Source: a virus. Taken from it: DNA of 64,000 bases. Numbering within the stretch: the stretch's first letter is position 1; the number at the start of each line of letters is the position of its first letter. The stretch covers positions 62,001 to 126,000 of the IMG/VR virus record IMGVR_UViG_3300028392_000036; one strand, 5' to 3'. The notes below the pieces were generated by a model. The model did not search any database, was not told the DNA's origin, and saw only the letters and a list, made by a program, of their open reading frames with translations. The translations under genes and the position numbers were made by a program. Positions 859 to 34,465 of the stretch are shown here, in pieces.

Positions 859-2415
859 ATGATATTTGGTTTTAGCATCCTGGCCACAGCAATCTTACTC
901 AGTTGCGTGGCCGCTTATTATTCTGTAGCAGGCTTAACAGCCATCTTCAGTGCGGCAACCATACCAGTTATCATCATGGGTGGCAGTCTAGAACTAGGCA
1001 AAATTGTGGCCACTGTATGGTTGCACAATAATTGGAAACGTGCTGGAATCTTGTTCAAAGCATATCTAGTGCCTGCGGTAGCGTTCCTAATGCTGTTGAC
1101 ATCAATGGGCATTTTTGGCTATCTCTCCAAGGCCCATTCAGATCAAAGCCTAGTGTCAGGTGATGCAGTAGCAAAGGTAGCAATCTACGATGAAAAGATC
1201 AAGATATCTCGTGACAATATTGAAGCCGACCGCCGGGCACTTAAACAGATGGATGAGGCTGTGGACCAAGTTATGGGCCGATCAGCAGATGAAAAAGGTG
1301 CCGACAAAGCAGTTGCAATACGAAGAGGCCAGCAACGAGAACGGTCTAGGATACTTGCTGACATCGAAGCCGAACAGAAAAAGATTACTGGTCTTAATGA
1401 AGAACGGGCGCCATTAGCGGCCGAGTTCCGCAAGGTTGAGTCAGAAGTAGGACCAATCAAGTACATTGCGGCCTTGGTGTATGGCGACAATCCTGACTCA
1501 AATGTACTAGAACGTGCTGTACGACTTGTGATCATCATGATTGTGCTGGTGTTTGACCCGCTAGCCCTTACCTTAATTCTAGCCGCCAACAAACAATTTC
1601 AATGGGCAAGAGAAGGCACCGGAGGCTTTGTACACGACGAGCCCAAGTACGATCCCGACAATGGTCCATTAACTGAGGACCAAATAGAACAAATAAAAGT
1701 GTCAGTGCCAGAACCACCCGATGATCCTATACCTTGCTACAAATGTGGTACACCATTGGTTGACGCTCCGGGCATTGGCCTGTTCTGCCCCAACAAGGAA
1801 TGTGATGTTATAGACAATGTCAACGGTGAAGAACCTGTTAAGTTTGCACCAATTGAAATTGAATACAAGTTTGTAGACGAACACCACGAATCTGATTATG
1901 CTCCAGCCCTTCACGTGTACGATGATGAACGACTGGTATCAAAGTTTGACAAGATACAGGCGATTGAGCCACCAGACGATGAACTTGACGATGATGACGA
2001 TGACGAAATCAAGATTGCTATTAAAAAATGGAAGACTGCCAACCCTGATGATACCATAAAGAATCAACGCTACAAGTTTATGCGTGGAGAAATATCCGAA
2101 TTGCCTTGGATGGGACTTGTGGCTGATAACACAGGCGGTAGAGAAAGCCGCAGTGGTTTTGGTATTAGTTTCCCCGAAACTCCCAACAAAGGTGATACCT
2201 TTGTACGAGTAGACGTTATGCCTAGTGCGGTTTACAAGTACAACGGAACAAACTGGATGGCTGTTGACAAAAACCTAAGCGACAGTTATACTTACGACTC
2301 AGCTTATATAGAACACCTGATAGATAAAATAAGTACTGGTGAATATGATCCGGACTTGTTGAGTGATAGTGAACGTCAACAAGTAGCAAATTACTTACAA
2401 ACAAAACAATCCTAA
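859..2415 (+). CDS. Large membrane protein with coiled coil and zinc ribbon
   Basis: 518 residues. Hydrophobic segments lie at about 3-25, 27-42, 70-90 and 217-243. A charged, coiled-coil-prone stretch (about 105-200) separates the third and fourth. A four-cysteine zinc ribbon (CYKCG and FCPNKEC) starts near residue 293, then an Asp-rich stretch (about 370). The C-terminal part (near VYKYNGTNWMAV) resembles a motif common at the ends of phage tail or fibre proteins. The first part resembles a membrane protein seen in marine phages, but I cannot name a function. Its stop overlaps the clpX start by one base, suggesting translational coupling. Confidence 0.75.
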   Translation: MIFGFSILATAILLSCVAAYYSVAGLTAIFSAATIPVIIMGGSLELGKIVATVWLHNNWKRAGILFKAYLVPAVAFLMLLTSMGIFGYLSKAHSDQSLVSGDAVAKVAIYDEKIKISRDNIEADRRALKQMDEAVDQVMGRSADEKGADKAVAIRRGQQRERSRILADIEAEQKKITGLNEERAPLAAEFRKVESEVGPIKYIAALVYGDNPDSNVLERAVRLVIIMIVLVFDPLALTLILAANKQFQWAREGTGGFVHDEPKYDPDNGPLTEDQIEQIKVSVPEPPDDPIPCYKCGTPLVDAPGIGLFCPNKECDVIDNVNGEEPVKFAPIEIEYKFVDEHHESDYAPALHVYDDERLVSKFDKIQAIEPPDDELDDDDDDEIKIAIKKWKTANPDDTIKNQRYKFMRGEISELPWMGLVADNTGGRESRSGFGISFPETPNKGDTFVRVDVMPSAVYKYNGTNWMAVDKNLSDSYTYDSAYIEHLIDKISTGEYDPDLLSDSERQQVANYLQTKQS

Positions 2416-3629
2416 TGAAATCTAACGAATCAATCAACACTTGTAGTTTTTGCGGTAAACACAAAGATGCGGTGGCCAAACTCATAGTGGGCGAACAAGT
2501 TGCAATCTGCAACGAATGCGTAGAGCTCTGTGAGACCTTGCTTCACGATGAAAACATAATCAAACCCACAGAGGCCGTAGATCTTGACCCAGAGTTGATT
2601 AAAGAGCATTTGGATCAATATGTGATTGGTCAGGACCGAGCCAAGCAGGTGCTAAGTGTAGCAGTGGTCAATCACTACAAACGTATTACTAATCCCAGCC
2701 CTGAAGTAGAAGTCGAGAAGTGTAATATTCTCATGCTTGGTCCAACAGGCTCGGGCAAAACATTGTTGGCCAAGACTGTGGCACGTTATCTAGATGTGCC
2801 ATTTGTTATTGCAGATGCTACCAGCTTGACCGAAGCCGGTTATGTGGGTGATGACGTAGAAAGTTTAATTTCTAGATTATTTGCGGCCGCAGGCGGCGAC
2901 ATTGCTAAAACCCAACGTGGTATTGTGTTCATTGACGAAATTGATAAAATTAGCCGTCGTAGCGAGAGTGCCAGTATCACCCGAGATGTATCCGGAGAAG
3001 GCGTCCAACAGGCCTTGCTTAAATTGGTAGAAGGTACCAAGTGCAGAGTCACTCCCACAGGAAGTCGCAAGCATCCTTCAGGGGACATGATTGAGATCGA
3101 TACCACCAACATCTTGTTTATTGCAGGCGGTGCGTTTGTTGGCTTGGACAATGTGGTTAAAAATCGTGTACAGGGAACCAGTATTGGTTTTGGTGCTAAA
3201 ATTAAAAATGACGCCATAACACATTTGGATCAAACTACCCCTGAAGATTTGATCAAGTTTGGTATGATTCCAGAGTTTGTGGGACGTTTTCCTAGTTGGG
3301 TAGCACTTAGCGAACTTAACAAAGAAGATTTAATCCGTATTTTGCTAGATGTCAAACACAGTTATATAGAACAGTATAATTGGTTGTTTGGGCAGGACAA
3401 AGTAGAACTAGAATTCTCATCCGACGCCTTGGAAATGATTGCAGATCGCACTATTCTAAACAAAACTGGCGCCCGAGGTTTGCATAGCGAACTAGAACGT
3501 GTGCTATTACCCCATATGTTCTATTTGGCCCGTTATCGTAGAGAAGGTATTAACCACGTGTTTATTGACGCAGATCAGGTAAATACTCCTACAGAATTAA
3601 AGGAAGCCAATGCAAAAGCTCAGGGGTAG
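2415..3629 (+). CDS. clpX: ATP-dependent Clp protease ATPase subunit ClpX
   Basis: Full-length ClpX (404 aa; bacterial ClpX is about 420). The N-terminal zinc-binding domain has Cys10, Cys13, Cys32 and Cys35. Walker A is GPTGSGKT (109-116), Walker B is IVFIDEID, and the sensor-2 region ([11 protein letters not shown]) is intact. The IGF tripeptide (about 257-259) that docks ClpX onto ClpP is kept, so it should work with a protease partner, either the phage ClpP at 25815 or host ClpP. In bacteria ClpX unfolds substrates and feeds them to ClpP. It overlaps the gene before it by 1 nt and the bS21 gene after it by 20 nt. Confidence 0.96.
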
Positions 3630-7127: not shown

Positions 7128-8366
7128 ATGAAAAAAATTGGATTTATTGGTATCGGCAAACTGGGACTTGATTGTGCCGAAGTTATGGCAGAGAAGCATG
7201 AAGTCAGAGGCTACGATATTTACCCACGAGTCAGCGACTCAGTAAAAGTTTGCGATATTGACGAATTGGTCAATGAAAGCGAATGGATTTTTATTGCAGT
7301 ACCCACCCCACACGCAGAAGGCTACGATGGCTCAGTGCCAAGCTCGCATATGGAACCTCGAGACTTTGGCCACGATGCTGTGATTGATGCCATTAACAAA
7401 GTTAATCAACATGCCAAGAGTCCTAAAAAGGTTGTGTTAATCTCTACAGTGCTTCCTGGTACCACACGTACCAAGTTTGTTCCTCTACTAGACAAGCAAC
7501 ATCAGTTTTTGTACAATCCTTACCTGATCGCCATGGGCTCAGTCAAGTGGGATATGGCCAATCCTGAAATGGTTATTATTGGTACAGAAGACGGTGAGCT
7601 CACAGGTATTGCAGGCGAATTGATTGAATTGTACAAAACAATAATGAACAACGATCCACGATATGAAATTGGCACCTGGGACGAATGTGAAGCTATCAAG
7701 ATTTTCTACAACACATACATCAGTGCCAAAGTTGGTATTGTTAATATGATCCAAGATTTTGCCATGAAGATTGGCAATATCAATGTTGATGTTGTTACCA
7801 ATGCATTGGCTCGCTCAACAATGAGATTGCAAGGTCCCAAGTATATGACAGCAGGTATGGGCGATGCTGGCGCTTGCCACCCGCGTGACAATATTGCACT
7901 GCGTTGGTTGGCAGAACGCTATGAAATAGGCTATGATTTGTTTGACACAATTATGCATGCTCGTGAAATCCAAGCTAAAAACTTGGCCCTGTTCCTTGTA
8001 GAACAAGCCAAACAAAATGGTATGAGTGTTGTGATTCACGGCAAAGCATACAAACCTGATGTAGAATACTGTATTGGTTCATACAGCACCTTGGTAGGAC
8101 ACTATGTTAAAGAAGCAGGATTTGGTGTAAGGTATATTGACCCAATAGCAGATGATTCTACTGAAGTTGTTTCGGAAATAGTTGGGCCAGCAGTCATACT
8201 ATGGGCACACAATCGCAAAATCACTTACGAATACACAGGCGAACAAAAAGATACTCAGGCCTATTGTGAAATCCCAAAAGGTAGTATTATCGTTGATCCA
8301 TGGCGCAAACTTCCACAGATTGAGAATTTGACTGTGGTACATTATGGCAACACCAGAAATTCTTAA
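7128..8366 (+). CDS. UDP-glucose/GDP-mannose dehydrogenase family protein
   Basis: 412 residues. An N-terminal Rossmann motif (IGFIGIGKLG) binds NAD. The catalytic cysteine lies in DAGACHPRDN, matching the GGSCFPKD block of the family. A C-terminal UDP-binding domain follows (VVIHGKAYKPDVEY, then VILWAHN). Such enzymes oxidise a nucleotide sugar twice to the uronic acid, a precursor of capsule or glycolipid. The ATG abuts the divergent gene's ATG (7127/7128) and has a good AAAGGAA site. UDP-glucuronate could also be a donor for the glycosyltransferase at 14312, which is my inference. Confidence 0.88.
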   Translation: MKKIGFIGIGKLGLDCAEVMAEKHEVRGYDIYPRVSDSVKVCDIDELVNESEWIFIAVPTPHAEGYDGSVPSSHMEPRDFGHDAVIDAINKVNQHAKSPKKVVLISTVLPGTTRTKFVPLLDKQHQFLYNPYLIAMGSVKWDMANPEMVIIGTEDGELTGIAGELIELYKTIMNNDPRYEIGTWDECEAIKIFYNTYISAKVGIVNMIQDFAMKIGNINVDVVTNALARSTMRLQGPKYMTAGMGDAGACHPRDNIALRWLAERYEIGYDLFDTIMHAREIQAKNLALFLVEQAKQNGMSVVIHGKAYKPDVEYCIGSYSTLVGHYVKEAGFGVRYIDPIADDSTEVVSEIVGPAVILWAHNRKITYEYTGEQKDTQAYCEIPKGSIIVDPWRKLPQIENLTVVHYGNTRNS

Positions 8367-11285: not shown

Positions 11286-11544
11286 TTGGATACGCAGTGA
11301 TTACAAAACTAACCCACTTAGGTTCGTCGTGGAAGTACTGGCTTGGGCTGTGTCTATTGGGTGCAGTATTACGATGGCTGCCACTGTACCTAATCCCCCT
11401 CTTGTGGTACTTTACCCTATATGGATTAGTGGTTGTGCTATGTATGCTTGGGCTAGTTGGACTCGTAAATCGTTTGGTATGTTGGCCAACTACTGCCTAC
11501 TAGTCAGCATTGATACTGTGGGTTTGCTACGTATGATTTTGTAA
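11245..11544 (+). CDS. Small membrane protein of marine-phage type
   Basis: 99 residues (or 95 from the ATG at 11257), overlapping the end of uvsE. Two or three hydrophobic segments surround PNPPLVVLYPIWISGCAMY. It resembles a conserved small membrane protein of marine phages and bacteria that I cannot name. This frame is preferred over another hydrophobic frame (11282-11503) as it ends at the Pho box and has the conserved NPP and RKSFGMLANY features. Confidence 0.65.
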   Translation: MNNFMNNIFLNIFDWIRSDYKTNPLRFVVEVLAWAVSIGCSITMAATVPNPPLVVLYPIWISGCAMYAWASWTRKSFGMLANYCLLVSIDTVGLLRMIL

Positions 11545-11573
11545 CAAAATTGTAACACAAATTAGCCTAAATA
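11539..11573 (+). promoter_or_regulatory. Pho box and -10 of pstS
   Basis: Two direct 7-mers TTGTAAC (11539-11545 and 11550-11556) with a 4-bp gap give the 11-bp periodicity of a PhoB box. A -10-like TAAATA (11568-11573) follows after 11 bp, as in Pho promoters where the box replaces the -35. An almost identical arrangement lies at 13528-13562. Confidence 0.75.
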
Positions 11574-11596: not shown

Positions 11597-12601
11597 GTGA
11601 AACAATTATTTGCAATCTTACTAGCGTCAATATCAATCTCAGCATCAGCACAGACTATAACAGGTGCTGGCGCAACATTCCCATACCCCATCTATAGCAA
11701 GTGGTCAGAACTTTACAACAAAGAAACTGGCGTAGCACTCAATTACCAATCAATTGGTTCCAGTGGCGGCATTCGTCAAATTGATGCCAAAACAGTGACC
11801 TTTGGTGCAACTGATGCACCTGTAGCCGGGGACAAACTAGACAAAAATAGTCAAGTACAGTTTCCCGCTATCATTGGCGGAACAGTTCCTATTGTTAACT
11901 TGGATGGCTTCAAGCCCGGAGAACTACGTATTACAGGTCCTGTAATGGCAGAAGTGTTCTTGGGTGAAATCTCCAAATGGAATGATCCAAAGTTGGCGGC
12001 ACTTAACCCAGGTAAAAAATTACCTGACTTAGAAATTACTATTGTGCATCGTGCAGATGGTTCGGGTACTACATTTAACTGGACAGATTATTTGTCATCT
12101 ACCAGCGCCAAGTGGGCCGACAAGGTTGGCAAAGGTGCCGCAGTCAAGTGGCCAGCCGCAAGTTCAGTAGGTGGCAAGGGCAACGAAGGTGTTGCCGCTA
12201 ATGTACATCGTGTTAAAGGCTCCATTGGCTATGTTGAATATGCTTATGTTAAAAAGAACAATTTGACTTTCTTGCAATTACAAAACAAGTCAGGCAAATA
12301 TGTCAGCCCAGATGATCTAACATTTGCTGCCGCGGCAGCCGGTGCTGATTGGTTCTCAGTTCCTGGTATGGGTGTGAGCATTGTAGATCAGCGTGGTGAT
12401 ACAGTATGGCCTGTAAGCACAGCCAGTTTCATCATCATGTACAAAGACCCCACAGACAAGAAAGCCAGCCAAGACACATTGAAGTTCTTTGATTGGGCAT
12501 TCAAGAACGGTAAGAAAGCCGCAGAGGAATTAGACTATGTGGCATTACCAGACATTCTAACAAAACAAATTCGCGAGCGTGTGTGGAGTCAGATCAAGTA
12601 A
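11597..12601 (+). CDS. pstS: Phosphate ABC transporter substrate-binding protein PstS
   Basis: 334 residues starting at GTG after AAGGAG. A Sec signal peptide ends near SASAQ. The mature N-terminus TITGAGATFPYPIYSKW is the PstS signature, and phosphate-binding blocks are visible (IGSSGGIRQ, ADGSGTTF, ATDAPV). It binds phosphate in the periplasm for the host Pst importer. Phage pstS under PhoB control is known from cyanophages. The Pho box is directly upstream and a strong terminator follows, so it is a single-gene unit. Confidence 0.95.
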   Translation: MKQLFAILLASISISASAQTITGAGATFPYPIYSKWSELYNKETGVALNYQSIGSSGGIRQIDAKTVTFGATDAPVAGDKLDKNSQVQFPAIIGGTVPIVNLDGFKPGELRITGPVMAEVFLGEISKWNDPKLAALNPGKKLPDLEITIVHRADGSGTTFNWTDYLSSTSAKWADKVGKGAAVKWPAASSVGGKGNEGVAANVHRVKGSIGYVEYAYVKKNNLTFLQLQNKSGKYVSPDDLTFAAAAAGADWFSVPGMGVSIVDQRGDTVWPVSTASFIIMYKDPTDKKASQDTLKFFDWAFKNGKKAAEELDYVALPDILTKQIRERVWSQIK

Positions 12602-12649
12602 TTAAACCGACCACAACGATAGAGTGGCGCTGGAACTCGTAACCAGCAG

Positions 12650-12677
12650 ATACCCCAAATTTTTGGGGTATTTTTTT
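12650..12677 (+). terminator. Rho-independent terminator after pstS
   Basis: Inverted repeat ATACCCCAAA/TTTGGGGTAT with a short loop, followed by a run of seven T. Confidence 0.9.
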
Positions 12678-12717
12678 GTCCGTGTTTAATGATTTGATCG
12701 CAGAGTTAAATATCTAT

Positions 12718-12882
12718 ATGAGTTGGTTTAAGCGAATTCCACACAGATACCCTCCACAAACGCCTGCCTCTGCACCACATAGAACTAGCCCTGCCACTGA
12801 TCGAGCACTAGAAGAGTCTAAATTGCTGGGTCCAAAATCCCGTAAAAAAACTGTCAAAAAGCCCCCACTAAATACTGAATGA
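12718..12882 (+). CDS. Small basic conserved phage protein (54 aa)
   Basis: Starts MSWFKRIPHRYPP, contains HRTSPATDRALEES and ends with a Lys-rich tail. The pattern matches a tiny protein common in T4-like cyanophages and other marine phages, function unknown. A longer start at a TTG inside the terminator is unlikely. Its stop overlaps the next start (ATGA). Confidence 0.7.
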   Translation: MSWFKRIPHRYPPQTPASAPHRTSPATDRALEESKLLGPKSRKKTVKKPPLNTE

Positions 12883-13541
12883 AACCCACCATAGCCCTAT
12901 TTTTGCACGACCCCAAATGTAGTGTACAAAGTGGCAATGGGCTCATGCGAGCCCTAGGCGATCATTACAAGTTCAAAATATTTGGTAAAAACAAACTAGA
13001 AGATGTGTTCTTTGACGACGTAGACATGATTGCTGTACCCGGTGGCTTTGGCGATGCTGATTCATTTGACGGACTGTTCAAACACAATGCTGAACGTGTG
13101 CAACAATTTCTAGAACGTGGCGGTCGATACTTGGGTATTTGCATGGGTGCATACTGGGCCGGCAGCGAATATCTCAACATCTTGGATGGTGTGGATGCTG
13201 TGCAGTATATCCGTCGCCCTGGCACAGACACACATAGACCACATGCTAAAAACCTGCCTGTGTTGTGGCAAGATCGTTGGGGCAATATTGAGCCCTGGAA
13301 AATGTTCTTTTACGATGGCTGTGCATTGGTAGGGGACAAAACCAAGTTTCGAACCATGGCCACATATATGAATGGAGACGCCATGGCAATTATACAAAAC
13401 AATATTGGACTGATAGGTTGTCATCCTGAAAGCGAGCAGTTCTGGTATGACAGTTACTCCTGGATGCGGGGTCGATATCATAGAGGTCAACATCATACAT
13501 TGTTGTTAGACTTTGTGGATCAAATGTTTGTAACAAAATAG
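12879..13541 (+). CDS. Class I glutamine amidotransferase-like protein (BPL_N type)
   Basis: 220 residues. A nucleophile-elbow motif LGICMGAYWAG (Cys88) and a later GCHPESEQFW give the Cys-His pair of the class I amidotransferase fold. The N-terminus (IALFLHDPKCSVQSGNG) resembles the N-terminal domain of biotin-protein-ligase-like proteins. The substrate is unknown. Its last codons form part of the second Pho box. It lies between the two phosphate-regulated units. Confidence 0.7.
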   Translation: MKPTIALFLHDPKCSVQSGNGLMRALGDHYKFKIFGKNKLEDVFFDDVDMIAVPGGFGDADSFDGLFKHNAERVQQFLERGGRYLGICMGAYWAGSEYLNILDGVDAVQYIRRPGTDTHRPHAKNLPVLWQDRWGNIEPWKMFFYDGCALVGDKTKFRTMATYMNGDAMAIIQNNIGLIGCHPESEQFWYDSYSWMRGRYHRGQHHTLLLDFVDQMFVTK

Positions 13542-13562
13542 TAACACAGATCCGCCTAAATA
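13528..13562 (+). promoter_or_regulatory. Pho box and -10 of plcP-agt unit
   Basis: TTGTAAC (13528-13534), AAAA, TAGTAAC (13539-13545), 11 bp, TAAATA (13557-13562). Compared with the pstS box the two repeats, the gap, the following ACACA and the GCCTAAATA are nearly the same. The plcP ATG is only 4 nt after the -10, so the message has little or no leader. Confidence 0.75.
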
Positions 13563-13566
13563 TTAG

Positions 13567-14361
13567 ATGCAGAAAACGTATCGCAGTATTTTTATCAGTG
13601 ATGTACACCTGGGCACAAGAGACTGCAAGGCAGAAGAACTAAACAATTTCCTAAAGCACAACTCCTGCAATACTTTATATCTTGTGGGGGACATTATTGA
13701 TGCTTGGAAAATGCAACAAAACAAATTGCGATGGAAACAAAGTCATACCAACGTTGTCCGTAGGGTTCTTGGTCACGCTAAACGTGGCACTAGGGTTGTA
13801 TACGTGGCTGGAAATCATGACGAATTCCTGCGTCCGATGATACCGTATGCTGCCACATTTGGTACTGTGGAAATATGTAATCAATGCGAACATGTGGGTG
13901 CAGACGGCAAACATTATCTTGTGGTGCATGGCGACCTGTTTGATGGTATCACCCGACTGGCACCATGGTTGAGTTTTTTGGGAGACAAAGCATATGATTT
14001 TATCCTGGGGCTTAATAGTAGATTTAATTGGATCCGCCATCGTATGGGTTTTGGTTATTGGAGTCTTAGCCAGTTTCTTAAGCATAGGGTCAAAAAAGCC
14101 ATTGACTTCATGTTTCACTTTGAAAGAAACCTTGCGGCCTACTGCAAAAAAAGAGGATTTGATGGCGTGGTCTGCGGTCACATACACCACGCAGAAATAA
14201 AAGAAATAAACGGTGTAGTATATATGAATGACGGCGACTGGGTTGAAAGTTGTACTGCACTTGTAGAACATCATGACGGGCGTTGGGAAATCGTAACATG
14301 GACACAAAAAAATGACCAAGAAGATATTGATAATAACAGACAACTTGCCGGATCAAATTAA
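13567..14361 (+). CDS. plcP: PlcP-like phospholipase C (UDP-diacylglucosamine hydrolase family)
   Basis: 264 residues of the calcineurin-like fold: FISDVHLGTRDCK, LVGDIIDAW, VAGNHDEFL, LVVHGDLFD, CGHIHHAEIK. The ending MNDGDWVESCTALVEHHDG and the YWSLSQFLKHRVKKAIDF block are typical of the PlcP branch rather than LpxH. PlcP splits phosphatidyl lipids to diacylglycerol during phosphate starvation; the adjacent glycosyltransferase then makes glycolipids. Here both the Pho box and the downstream glycosyltransferase are present, the same arrangement as in bacterial lipid renovation. Annotation pipelines may name it LpxH. Confidence 0.85.
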   Translation: MQKTYRSIFISDVHLGTRDCKAEELNNFLKHNSCNTLYLVGDIIDAWKMQQNKLRWKQSHTNVVRRVLGHAKRGTRVVYVAGNHDEFLRPMIPYAATFGTVEICNQCEHVGADGKHYLVVHGDLFDGITRLAPWLSFLGDKAYDFILGLNSRFNWIRHRMGFGYWSLSQFLKHRVKKAIDFMFHFERNLAAYCKKRGFDGVVCGHIHHAEIKEINGVVYMNDGDWVESCTALVEHHDGRWEIVTWTQKNDQEDIDNNRQLAGSN

Positions 14362-15325
14362 TGGCGTGGTTACCACTTACAAGAACATTGAGGCTTGTGC
14401 GGTACTGGATGGTTATCATGTTGATTATATTGATCCCGGGCGGTTCCGCTACATTAATTGCCCTCGCTACCACGAAGTCAAGATTGCCTATCCCCGGAAT
14501 CTGGGCGCGAAGATTGAGGAGATTGCTCCGGATTATATCCACATCGCCACCGAGGGTCCTCTTGGTTTGTGGGCTCGAGCATATCTTTCACTGGGCAATA
14601 TTCGTCACAATACCGCTTATCATACTAAGTTTCCAGAGGGACTTAAGAAACTATTTGGGATTCCTGAATTCGTAACCTGGCGGTTTGTACGCTGGTTTCA
14701 CAAACACTCAGGCAAGGTACTAACCACGACAGATTCAATGGTTCGAGAATTGCAAGCACATGGATTCAATGGCGAAGTGATTCCGTGGACACGTGGTGTT
14801 GACCGTGAGATATTCCACCCTGGCTATCGTGATCGAGAAGATGACCACAAAATATTATTATGCGTTGCCCGTGTGAGTAAAGAAAAGAACTTGGAAGACT
14901 TTTTTGAATTACAATATCCCAAGAGTCGCAAAATCATGGTAGGTGATGGCCCTATGCTAGAGAAATATCGAAAGCAGTATCCTGATGTGGAGTTTGTAGG
15001 ATTTAAGACAGGCACAGAACTAGCAGAATATTATGCCAATGCTGATGTGTTTGTGTTTCCAAGTCAGTGGGAAACATTTGGCATTGTGATGATTGAAGCC
15101 ATGGCCTGTGGTACCCCTGTAGCCGCATATCCATGCCAAGGTCCCGAAGATGTTGTGGAACCAGGTGTGACTGGTTATTTAGAACAAGATCTAGCCACTG
15201 CGGTGCATCGTTGTATCGGGCTCAACAGGGACCAAGTATTAGAGGGCAGCCAACGCTGGAGTTGGGAACGAGCCTGGCACATATTCCGAGACAATCTCAC
15301 TCCCAACCACTTGTGGACCAAATAA
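14312..15325 (+). CDS. GT4 glycosyltransferase, Agt-like (diacylglycerol glycosylation)
   Basis: 337 residues. The N-terminal domain has TDNLPDQINGVVTTYKN and PCPRYHEVKIAYP, and the C-terminal domain has LLCVARVSKEKNLEDF and the donor motif FVFPSQWETFGIVMIEAMACG. This matches GT4 enzymes of the SqdX/Agt type that act on diacylglycerol with UDP-glucose or UDP-glucuronate. It overlaps plcP by 50 nt in another frame. Role inferred: conversion of diacylglycerol left by PlcP into a non-phosphorus glycolipid. Confidence 0.85.
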   Translation: MTKKILIITDNLPDQINGVVTTYKNIEACAVLDGYHVDYIDPGRFRYINCPRYHEVKIAYPRNLGAKIEEIAPDYIHIATEGPLGLWARAYLSLGNIRHNTAYHTKFPEGLKKLFGIPEFVTWRFVRWFHKHSGKVLTTTDSMVRELQAHGFNGEVIPWTRGVDREIFHPGYRDREDDHKILLCVARVSKEKNLEDFFELQYPKSRKIMVGDGPMLEKYRKQYPDVEFVGFKTGTELAEYYANADVFVFPSQWETFGIVMIEAMACGTPVAAYPCQGPEDVVEPGVTGYLEQDLATAVHRCIGLNRDQVLEGSQRWSWERAWHIFRDNLTPNHLWTK

Positions 15326-15343: not shown

Positions 15344-15952
15344 ATGAAAGAAATACTACAAACACTTCGCGAGCAACGTTGGGACGATCATCGTTACTAT
15401 CATCACAGTAGAATCAATCAATTTTTACACTTAATCTCAGCCTTAAGTTTCTTGATTGCCTATGTTTATCTGTTTATTGATCCTGTTGTGAGTGCATGGA
15501 TTGCTTGGTTGATTGCCATGACTACTCGTCAAGCCGGGCACTTTTTCTTTGAACCACACGGCTACGATGAATACAACAAGGCCACATTTGAACACAAAGA
15601 AAAAATCAAAATTGGTTTTAACTTAAAACGCAAACGGGTGTTGCTCACATGCTGGGTCGCAGTGCCTGCCCTGGCGTTCTTTGATGCTGAACTAATGAAT
15701 CTGTTAATACCCAACAACGACCCAATGACATTTGTAAACCGTGTGGGTATGGGATGGTTATGGCTGGGTGCGGCTGGTGTGTTGTTTAGAATGATCCAAT
15801 TGACCGCACTACAGAGCAGACGGGTTGCGTTAGTTTGGTGCTTGAAGATCTTGACTGATCCATTTCACGATGTATGGATCTATCGCAAGAGTCCCATATA
15901 CTTGATGCAAGGACAGTTGATTGACCCTGATTTACGTCAAGATTACTCTTGA
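15344..15952 (+). CDS. Membrane protein with histidine motifs, Mpo1/DUF962-like
   Basis: 202 residues, preceded by AAAGGAA. YYHHSRINQFLHL and RQAGHFFFEPHG hold conserved-looking histidines between hydrophobic segments (about 27-60, 92-115 and 130-150). This recalls small iron-dependent lipid hydroxylase membrane proteins (DUF962/Mpo1), but the match is loose. Its place right after plcP-agt and beside a desaturase suggests lipid metabolism. The C-terminus overlaps tail to tail with the desaturase gene by 10 nt. Confidence 0.55.
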   Translation: MKEILQTLREQRWDDHRYYHHSRINQFLHLISALSFLIAYVYLFIDPVVSAWIAWLIAMTTRQAGHFFFEPHGYDEYNKATFEHKEKIKIGFNLKRKRVLLTCWVAVPALAFFDAELMNLLIPNNDPMTFVNRVGMGWLWLGAAGVLFRMIQLTALQSRRVALVWCLKILTDPFHDVWIYRKSPIYLMQGQLIDPDLRQDYS

Positions 15953-16653
15953 TTGCGAAGTCTAGCAAGTCCTAGTATTCTAAACAGGCTGAGCCACATC
16001 CAGCCTATATCGAATTCCCACCAAGTCTTAGAGAGGCGGGCACTCGCTGGTGCCAGGTGGTGGTTGTTGTGCAGTTCTTCGCCGCCAATAACAATGCCCC
16101 AAGGACTAATATTACGACTACGATCTTTAGTTTCGCCATTTCTATATCCTATCCAATGTCCAATGCCGTTTATGACTCCAGCCGCCCAGAATGGAATCCA
16201 TATCATTTGTATACCCCATATAACCGGACCCCACCAACCAAACACTAGGGTGTTGAGCACAAGGAGAATGCCAATGCCAAGTCTACTGTGAGGCTGGTAT
16301 ATGTGAAGCTCCATCCAATCAGCAGGAGTACCAACACCGTATGCGTCAACCATGACACGATCTTTTGATGCTTCATGATACAGTACCGCTCCTTTAAAGA
16401 AAACTCTCTTGATTCCGTACACGTGAGGTGAGTGCGGATCACCTTCTGCATCACTGAATCTGTGATGCTTGCGGTGTATGGCCACCCATTGCTTGGTTAC
16501 CATGCCTGTGGTCAACCATAACCAGGCTCTCATGAAGTGTTCAAGCACAGGATGAAATTCTATACCTCGGTGTGCTTGGCCACGATGTAGGTACAACGTG
16601 ACACAGATGATAGTAATGTGTGTCATTACCAGTGTTGCGATTAGTTCTGTCAT
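15943..16653 (-). CDS. Fatty acid desaturase (delta-9 type)
   Basis: 236 residues with the three His boxes of membrane di-iron desaturases: H23-x4-H28, H60-x2-H63-H64 (IHRKHHRFSD) and HNNHH near residue 195, plus several hydrophobic stretches. Slightly short for the family but all boxes are intact. It would introduce a double bond into acyl chains of host membrane lipids. Next to the plcP-agt unit it could adjust the fluidity of the remodelled membrane, which is inference. Confidence 0.88.
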   Translation of the reverse strand: MTELIATLVMTHITIICVTLYLHRGQAHRGIEFHPVLEHFMRAWLWLTTGMVTKQWVAIHRKHHRFSDAEGDPHSPHVYGIKRVFFKGAVLYHEASKDRVMVDAYGVGTPADWMELHIYQPHSRLGIGILLVLNTLVFGWWGPVIWGIQMIWIPFWAAGVINGIGHWIGYRNGETKDRSRNISPWGIVIGGEELHNNHHLAPASARLSKTWWEFDIGWMWLSLFRILGLARLRNQE

Positions 16654-34030: not shown

Positions 34031-34372
34031 TTAGGCGTGTATCGCTCGGTACCGTGCCATGGCTCTGGCTCGGGCCACTGCCAATCTCACCTGAATATAC
34101 TCAGACAACTCATCATCGGGTTGGTCGGTCGGTGGCGCCACCCGGGGTCTTCGGGGGGTACTACTACAAAGAAATTCATCATCGGGTGCATCATAAGGAT
34201 CAGTTCCTTGCAACCGAATGGTAGTAAACCTATATGGATTGCTTCTCAACAGTTTGACTTTTGGCACCCGCGGTCCATGTGCTCGTAATACTGTGTGGTC
34301 AGGTGCCACAACAGGTACGTGAGCCCAGACGCCCGTGGCAACCAAAGCCACAATGATTAAAAAATATCGCAT
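34031..34372 (-). CDS. Secreted protein with signal peptide
   Basis: 113 residues. Sec signal MRYFLIIVALVATGVWA, then a Pro/Arg-rich mature part and a C-terminal helix rich in Ala and Arg. Family unknown. Confidence 0.6.
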   Translation of the reverse strand: MRYFLIIVALVATGVWAHVPVVAPDHTVLRAHGPRVPKVKLLRSNPYRFTTIRLQGTDPYDAPDDEFLCSSTPRRPRVAPPTDQPDDELSEYIQVRLAVARARAMARYRAIHA

Positions 34373-34436
34373 ACTAGTATATAACGCCTTAGTCCTGCAA
34401 AAGGTTGACTTAGTCTGGGAATGTTGCCAAAATGTG

Positions 34437-34465
34437 TTGCGATTGTGTTACAGTTGTACTATAAT
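34437..34465 (+). promoter_or_regulatory. Promoter of winged-helix gene
   Basis: TTGCGA (34437-34442), 17-bp spacer, TATAAT (34460-34465), with an AAAGG site before the ATG at 34512. Confidence 0.65.

Follow-up and report, generated by a model that had tools for sequence, protein, structure and literature searches.

The analysed stretch, a 64,000-nucleotide window taken from the IMG/VR virus record IMGVR_UViG_3300028392_000036 (142.9 kb; bases 62001-126000), contains three phosphate-related genes on its plus strand: pstS, encoding a phosphate-binding protein (11597-12601; PBP_like_2, 1.9e-29; PHROG phosphate transporter subunit, 5e-62); plcP, encoding a PlcP-type metallophosphoesterase and predicted phospholipase C (13567-14361; Metallophos, 5e-12); and an agt-like gene encoding a GT4 glycosyltransferase (14312-15325), which overlaps plcP by 50 bp. 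Pho-box-like direct repeats precede both pstS (TTGTAAC-AAAA-TTGTAAC, 11539-11556) and plcP (TTGTAAC-AAAA-TAGTAAC, 13528-13545), the latter overlapping the final codons of the open reading frame (ORF) at 12879-13541. Each repeat is followed after 10 bp by a CTAAATA promoter element (11567-11573 and 13556-13562, plus strand), the second of which ends 4 bp ahead of the plcP ATG. Two bases 3' of the pstS stop codon begins a 49-base two-hairpin RNA element (12604-12652, plus strand; hairpins 12611-12627 and 12629-12647), and an intrinsic terminator (12648-12678), composed of a hairpin at 12648-12673 and a U tract and recognized by fold and sequence, ends the pstS-RNA transcript. A preliminary description had reported a box of two 7-mers with a 4-bp gap before plcP, an overlapping glycosyltransferase, and pstS in the same phage, and all of these features were found where it had placed them.

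The phosphoesterase was assigned with a tree of 92 proteins, which included phage proteins, 59 bacterial PlcPs, and 12 LpxHs, the LpxH set consisting of the Escherichia coli enzyme and LpxHs from genomes that also hold PlcP. All 12 LpxHs split off at 100/100, with the phage proteins and the 59 bacterial PlcPs on the other side, and the main phage PlcP group formed a clade of its own (97/94). The bacterial clade was named PlcP through its Pelagibacteraceae and other members and through the pairing of plcP with agt reported in PMC4796936 and PMC8231724. The motifs GNHD, GHIH, and GDWVE were common to phage and bacterial PlcPs, whereas all 12 LpxHs had GNRD and GHTH; GNHD was present in 156 and GHIH in all of 157 proteins counted. 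The metal-binding motifs D-x-H, GDxxD, GNHD, and GHIH formed invariant alignment columns, as expected of PlcP. The scores of ORF 13567-14361 against LpxH models were far under the curated cut-offs (48 versus 134 bits and 35 versus 190 bits), and many of the same bacterial genomes encoded a true LpxH together with a separate, low-scoring PlcP. Because of the tree split, the motifs, the LpxH scores, and these separate LpxH genes, the protein was confirmed as PlcP-type and not LpxH, as the preliminary description had proposed; the grouping with LpxH that the description had named as a refutation did not occur, and phospholipase C activity is predicted for the protein. Comparison with the related contig L004 gave 61 synonymous and 3 nonsynonymous codon changes in plcP, which indicated strong purifying selection, and the GT4 codons were likewise under purifying selection. 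A plcP match of 58% was also seen on a 3.7-kb contig of a metagenome-assembled genome binned as Hyphomonas sp. (JARFRJ010000437.1); since this contig groups with phage sequences, it is probably a phage contig misplaced in the bin, and it was not used as a clue to the host.

The glycosyltransferase was linked to Agt by position and by descent. In 59 of 80 bacterial plcP loci a same-strand GT4 gene lay near plcP, nearly always immediately downstream, which is the order found in the window. When the phage GT4 was compared with whole bacterial genomes, its top match was usually the plcP neighbor (E-values mostly about 1e-60 to 1e-80), and the remaining GT4s of those genomes matched far more weakly. 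Furthermore, the phage GT4s formed a single clade (100/100) within the bacterial plcP-linked clade, closest to Pelagibacteraceae and on long branches (the row L243, labeled bacterial in that tree, is the window itself). The pair is widespread in IMG/VR and is not a one-off: 207 relatives were found for the phage PlcP and 351 for the GT4, and among the best 80 plcP loci many had the GT4 directly downstream, overlapping, about 130 bp away, or about 1 kb away. In two relatives, L302 and L309, pstS, the RNA element, plcP, and the GT4 gene were contiguous. Both protein families were poorly represented in PHROGs, which offered little on either gene, and Mosig (48%) and S-SRM01 (36%) were the only named cultured phages with such a phosphoesterase.

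The boxes were evaluated with a matrix whose training set was 24 boxes preceding the plcP genes of other phages, the window's own box and all pstS boxes being excluded. When both strands of the window were scanned, the two best matches were the repeats before pstS (11539; 25.7 bits) and plcP (13528; 20.2 bits); the third best reached 13.8 bits, and simulated sequence contained 0.0 sites at the level of the top two. The box claimed earlier for plcP was thus recovered independently, in second rank, and pstS proved to be boxed as well. No position of the 142.9-kb record besides these two matched the consensus when up to one mismatch was allowed. Among related phages, the sequence upstream of plcP typically had the form NTGTAA[CT]-N4-NTGTAA[CT], then NTAAATA immediately ahead of the ATG. 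Related phage loci totaling 1.79 Mb contained 86 strong boxes after dereplication: 64 preceded plcP (these partly belonging to the training set), 9 preceded pstS (all outside it), and 13 lay elsewhere, several of them before the RNA element. In 54 measured cases from 77 dereplicated upstream regions, the distance from the box end to NTAAATA was 10 bp in 18 and 20 to 21 bp in 34, spacings that differ by about one helical turn. A pair of 7-mers with a 4-bp gap, set a fixed 10 bp upstream of a promoter element and before phosphate genes, is the architecture of a Pho box, and the two window sites have it. The canonical sequence CTGTCAT-N4-CTGTCAT was absent within two mismatches.

TAAATA-class elements were present upstream of 14 of 86 window ORFs, compared with 1 of 86 controls, and TAAATA looks like a promoter element used generally in this phage. 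From its end to the plcP ATG the distance was 4 to 6 bp in many phages, and the RNA element begins at a similar distance past TAAATA; because these distances resemble each other, transcription would start at or near the ATG, and the plcP mRNA is probably leaderless. Two weaker, overlapping boxes were seen on the minus strand at 34447 (13.7 bits) and 34436 (13.8 bits), ahead of a small ORF (34031-34372) whose product looks exported. In the related contig L042, a copy of the RNA with a box comes after a relative of this ORF; the ORF in this region (34031-34464) is a possible third member of the regulon.

The RNA element was conserved in structure. Covariation amounted to 24 two-sided cells, compared with 4.9 +/- 2.1 after shuffling, and slid controls failed; the minimum-energy fold was the covariation structure, with a z score of -4.1 when the terminator was included. 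The RNA model R1 scored 73.6 bits for 12604-12652 and gave 40 matches in 84 phage sources. Among 39 copies inspected, 17 had a box of their own upstream, at -35 to -40 in 13 cases; others lay 3' of pstS or the GT4 gene, and in the relative L139 3' of a Porin_4 gene. Of 21 copies collected independently, with an RNA pattern as the sole criterion, 14 stood at the end of pstS. Rfam 15 contained no match to 12604-12652 above the gathering score, the best low-scoring matches being chance ones, and in 274 genomes of the class of Methylotenera the scores were just 18 to 23 bits, which were taken as chance. Pairing of the two loops in a kissing interaction was rejected, loop 1 varying without matching changes in loop 2. 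The element may act as a riboregulator or as a 3'-end element or stabilizer. The phage-encoded Porin_4 outer membrane porin of L139 (8931-10082) has a pstS with a box on one side and the RNA on the other.

Outside the window, the record encodes a terminase large subunit, helicases, ribonucleotide reductase, and DNA ligase, and its terminase was 52% identical to those of PA5oct-like Pseudomonas jumbo phages; because of these genes and this match, the record is taken to be a piece of a genuine jumbo-like tailed phage. A second copy with identical proteins was present as contig L001. The preliminary description had suggested comparison with alphaproteobacteria, from which the host or donor signal departed: against one genome in the class of Methylotenera the phage pstS reached 76% identity from end to end, and a 43-residue end fragment was 79% identical to Hydrogenophaga, compared with at most 58% elsewhere. 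One relative carried the Porin_4 porin, a further host clue, and a Burkholderiales-like host is likely. Plasmid searches with pstS and with the Mpo1-like protein described below yielded no close named donor, and a search of the record for transfer RNA and transfer-messenger RNA (tmRNA) genes as host clues found none. Two relatives did carry tmRNA genes, matching the betaproteobacterial and permuted families (L105:7997-8350 and L042:3847-4214), and their betaproteobacterial type is another host clue.

Gene identity, orthology, conservation, the box with its spacing, the promoter architecture, and the RNA covariation, as observed above, are best accounted for by a phage Pho regulon for mining lipid phosphorus, a reading that we consider probable. 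Under this reading, the PhoB of the host, activated during phosphate starvation, would bind the boxes ahead of the promoters of phage pstS and plcP and help RNA polymerase to initiate at the neighboring TAAATA. Phage PstS would increase phosphate capture, and PlcP would split phosphatidylethanolamine and phosphatidylglycerol into diacylglycerol and phosphorylated head groups, whose phosphorus could be reused for phage nucleotides. The GT4 would add sugar to the diacylglycerol, producing a phosphorus-free glycolipid and keeping the membrane intact until lysis. The same regulon would yield a short structured RNA, here as the 3' end of the pstS mRNA and, in some relatives, from a separate promoter that has a box. 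The membrane of a small cell holds about ten million lipid phosphates, roughly as much phosphate as a burst of some fifteen genomes of 300 kb contains, and by this rough arithmetic the membrane could be a source that matters. If the reading is true, then viruses extract phosphorus from host membranes and substitute a phosphorus-free lipid, beyond aiding phosphate import. A broader version may be entertained tentatively, with somewhat more doubt than belief: lake jumbo phages would carry a complete Pho regulon that responds to the host PhoB signal with phosphate capture, lipid stripping, glycolipid back-filling, and a dedicated structured RNA that reshapes expression under phosphate stress, the first case of lipid-phosphorus mining and of a Pho-driven phage RNA.

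Several points weigh against the lipid-phosphorus reading. PhoB binding, the enzyme activities, the glycolipid product, the flow of phosphorus, and the role of the RNA are predictions from sequence, and the likely host assignment is itself drawn from similarity signals. The record is an incomplete fragment. The tree contained no biochemically characterized PlcP that could be placed by name, the link being the plcP-agt synteny of SAR11 and rhizobia in the literature. Predicted Pho boxes in a cyanophage proved unreliable without electrophoretic mobility shift assays (PMC10976474). Among the best 80 plcP loci, many phages carry plcP without an adjacent GT4 gene. Finally, Asp256, the catalytic residue of SAR11 GTcp, which produces diacylglycerol glycolipids (PMC8231724), is replaced by Glu, and the preceding Thr by Trp, in nearly all phage copies (FPSxWETFG in place of FPSxTDTFG), a variant found in almost no bacterial Agt, and the substitution D256E in GTcp removed >90% of activity (PMC8231724).

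Given that loss, the donor, sugar, or product of the phage enzyme may differ from those of GTcp. The GT4 might thus no longer make glycosyl-diacylglycerol and might use another donor or acceptor, with PlcP alone freeing phosphorus and diacylglycerol, as the near-universal Asp-to-Glu and Thr-to-Trp changes and the frequent absence of a GT4 gene beside plcP would suggest. Such a loss is nevertheless rather unlikely: the GTcp donor-site residues His104, Arg190, Lys195, Phe-Gly, and Glu264 have equivalents in the phage GT4, as do Thr162 and Arg163; the usual motif of GT4 enzymes is EX7E; and the gene is still linked to plcP and under selection. The claim of an Agt-type enzyme therefore stands for clade and plcP-neighbor orthology and fails for the catalytic Asp and Thr; the protein is best regarded as a divergent Agt-clade GT4 and not as a proven GTcp-type enzyme, and its exact glycolipid is uncertain.

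It is less probable that the pair alters the host membrane or surface in some other way, through superinfection exclusion, receptor masking, or stabilization of the infected cell's membrane, with phosphorus release as a by-product. In its favor, surface modification is the usual interpretation of glycosyltransferases in large aquatic phages (PMC7029224), the active site of the GT4 is unlike that of Agt, and a desaturase gene recurs nearby; however, the box shared by pstS and plcP and the co-occurrence with pstS point to phosphorus, and the GT4 is orthologous to the phosphorus-stress Agt and not to lipopolysaccharide enzymes.

A little more doubtful still is the proposal that the box is a site for a phage-specific activator, like a MotA-type middle-promoter element, and not a PhoB site. 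The boxes of several bacterial pstS genes have the form NTGTCA[CT]-N4-NTGTCA[CT], from which the phage boxes depart systematically by a C-to-A change of one base per half-site, a further point against PhoB control, and the box stands beside the phage-type TAAATA. Against a phage activator, the two strong sites are alone in 142.9 kb, so that the box is not a general phage promoter, and both lie at phosphate genes; the register of 7+4+7 is that of Pho boxes; and a few phages (L007 and L107) retain the bacterial TGTCA form, GTGTCACAGAATTGTCAT. In addition, no OmpR/PhoB-type DNA-binding domain was found in the record, which points to a host regulator, and on the best reading the boxes are predicted host-PhoB sites. 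The annotations in Pelagibacter phage Mosig and Synechococcus phage S-SRM01, together with weak similarity to LpxH models and to LpxH in the PDB, might suggest a lipid A enzyme of the LpxH type; this identity is highly improbable for the phosphoesterase in view of the 100/100 split, GNHD in place of GNRD, the sub-cut-off scores, and the separate LpxH in host-type genomes.

Other genes lie around the cluster. The preliminary description had placed beside the pair a membrane protein with lipid-hydroxylase-like histidines and a fatty acid desaturase. The former is present at 15344-15952 (plus strand), with a weak Mpo1-like match (Pfam, 21.2 bits; cut-off, 24); it was 54 to 61% identical to proteins near plcP in Comamonadaceae and Burkholderiales contigs and is a neighbor and candidate module member. 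The latter belongs to the DesA family (15943-16653; NF049918, 388 bits; DesA cut-off, 400) and lies on the opposite strand; it is this gene that recurs near plcP across related phages. A UDP-glucose dehydrogenase gene (7128-8366, plus strand; PHROG 9148, 5e-85, and Pfam) could supply a UDP-glucuronate donor. A ClpX-like AAA ATPase with a zf-C4_ClpX zinc finger is encoded at 2415-3629.

The arrangement of plcP with a glycosyltransferase gene is known from bacterial phosphorus stress (PMC4796936), and PlcP-Agt remodeling has been described for SAR11, roseobacters, rhizobia, and Pseudomonas (PMC4796936, PMC8231724, and PMC8528852). The phage system shares with it the gene families, their order and strand, predicted Pho-box-type control, the PlcP motifs, and most Agt donor-site residues. 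It differs in being phage encoded, in the overlap of the two genes in the window, and in its placement with a phage pstS and a new RNA; in addition, its GT4 has EX7E with Trp where the bacterial enzymes have DX7E with Thr, its boxes are of the A type beside TAAATA, and its plcP is probably leaderless. A second parallel is the control of pstS and other cyanophage genes by host PhoBR (PMC10976474 and references therein), phage phosphate genes being switched by host PhoB there and predicted to be so here, but the cyanobacterial box is PyTTAAPyPy, and neither a plcP-agt pair nor a conserved RNA was reported there.

Among cultured phages, Pelagibacter phage Mosig EXVC030M encodes a PlcP-type protein (Mosig_00120; MT647606.1, 94129-94866) that is divergently oriented from an adjoining phage pstS, and a second such protein is encoded by S-SRM01 (MW015081.1, 210536-211240). 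Between pstS and the plcP homolog, Mosig has the repeat TTTAACA-AAAA-CTTAACA; such repeats occur there at about 3.6 per kb, near background, and as a Pho-type box this one is only suggestive. Unlike the window, Mosig, a member of the Kyanoviridae and thus of a different phage family, has no adjacent GT4 gene. GenBank labels the homologs of both phages UDP-2,3-diacylglucosamine hydrolase or diphosphatase, that of Mosig as the hydrolase. These lipid A enzyme labels are probably wrong, LpxH sharing the metallophosphoesterase superfamily with PlcP but separating in clade (100/100) and in its GNRD and GHTH motifs, and plcP-type phage genes are probably hidden in surveys as LpxH. A pelagimyophage survey reported desaturases as well as numerous glycosyltransferases, interpreted as modifying surfaces, and not the PlcP-Agt pair (PMC7029224). 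Open-access text searches, with subscription literature outside their range, found no report of a phage-encoded pair, in agreement with the preliminary description, although the pair itself is widespread. Host PhoB control of phage genes is thus known, as is, separately, the PlcP-Agt pathway of bacteria; what appears to be new, as far as we are aware, is their combination in phages, together with the divergent GT4 and the RNA element.

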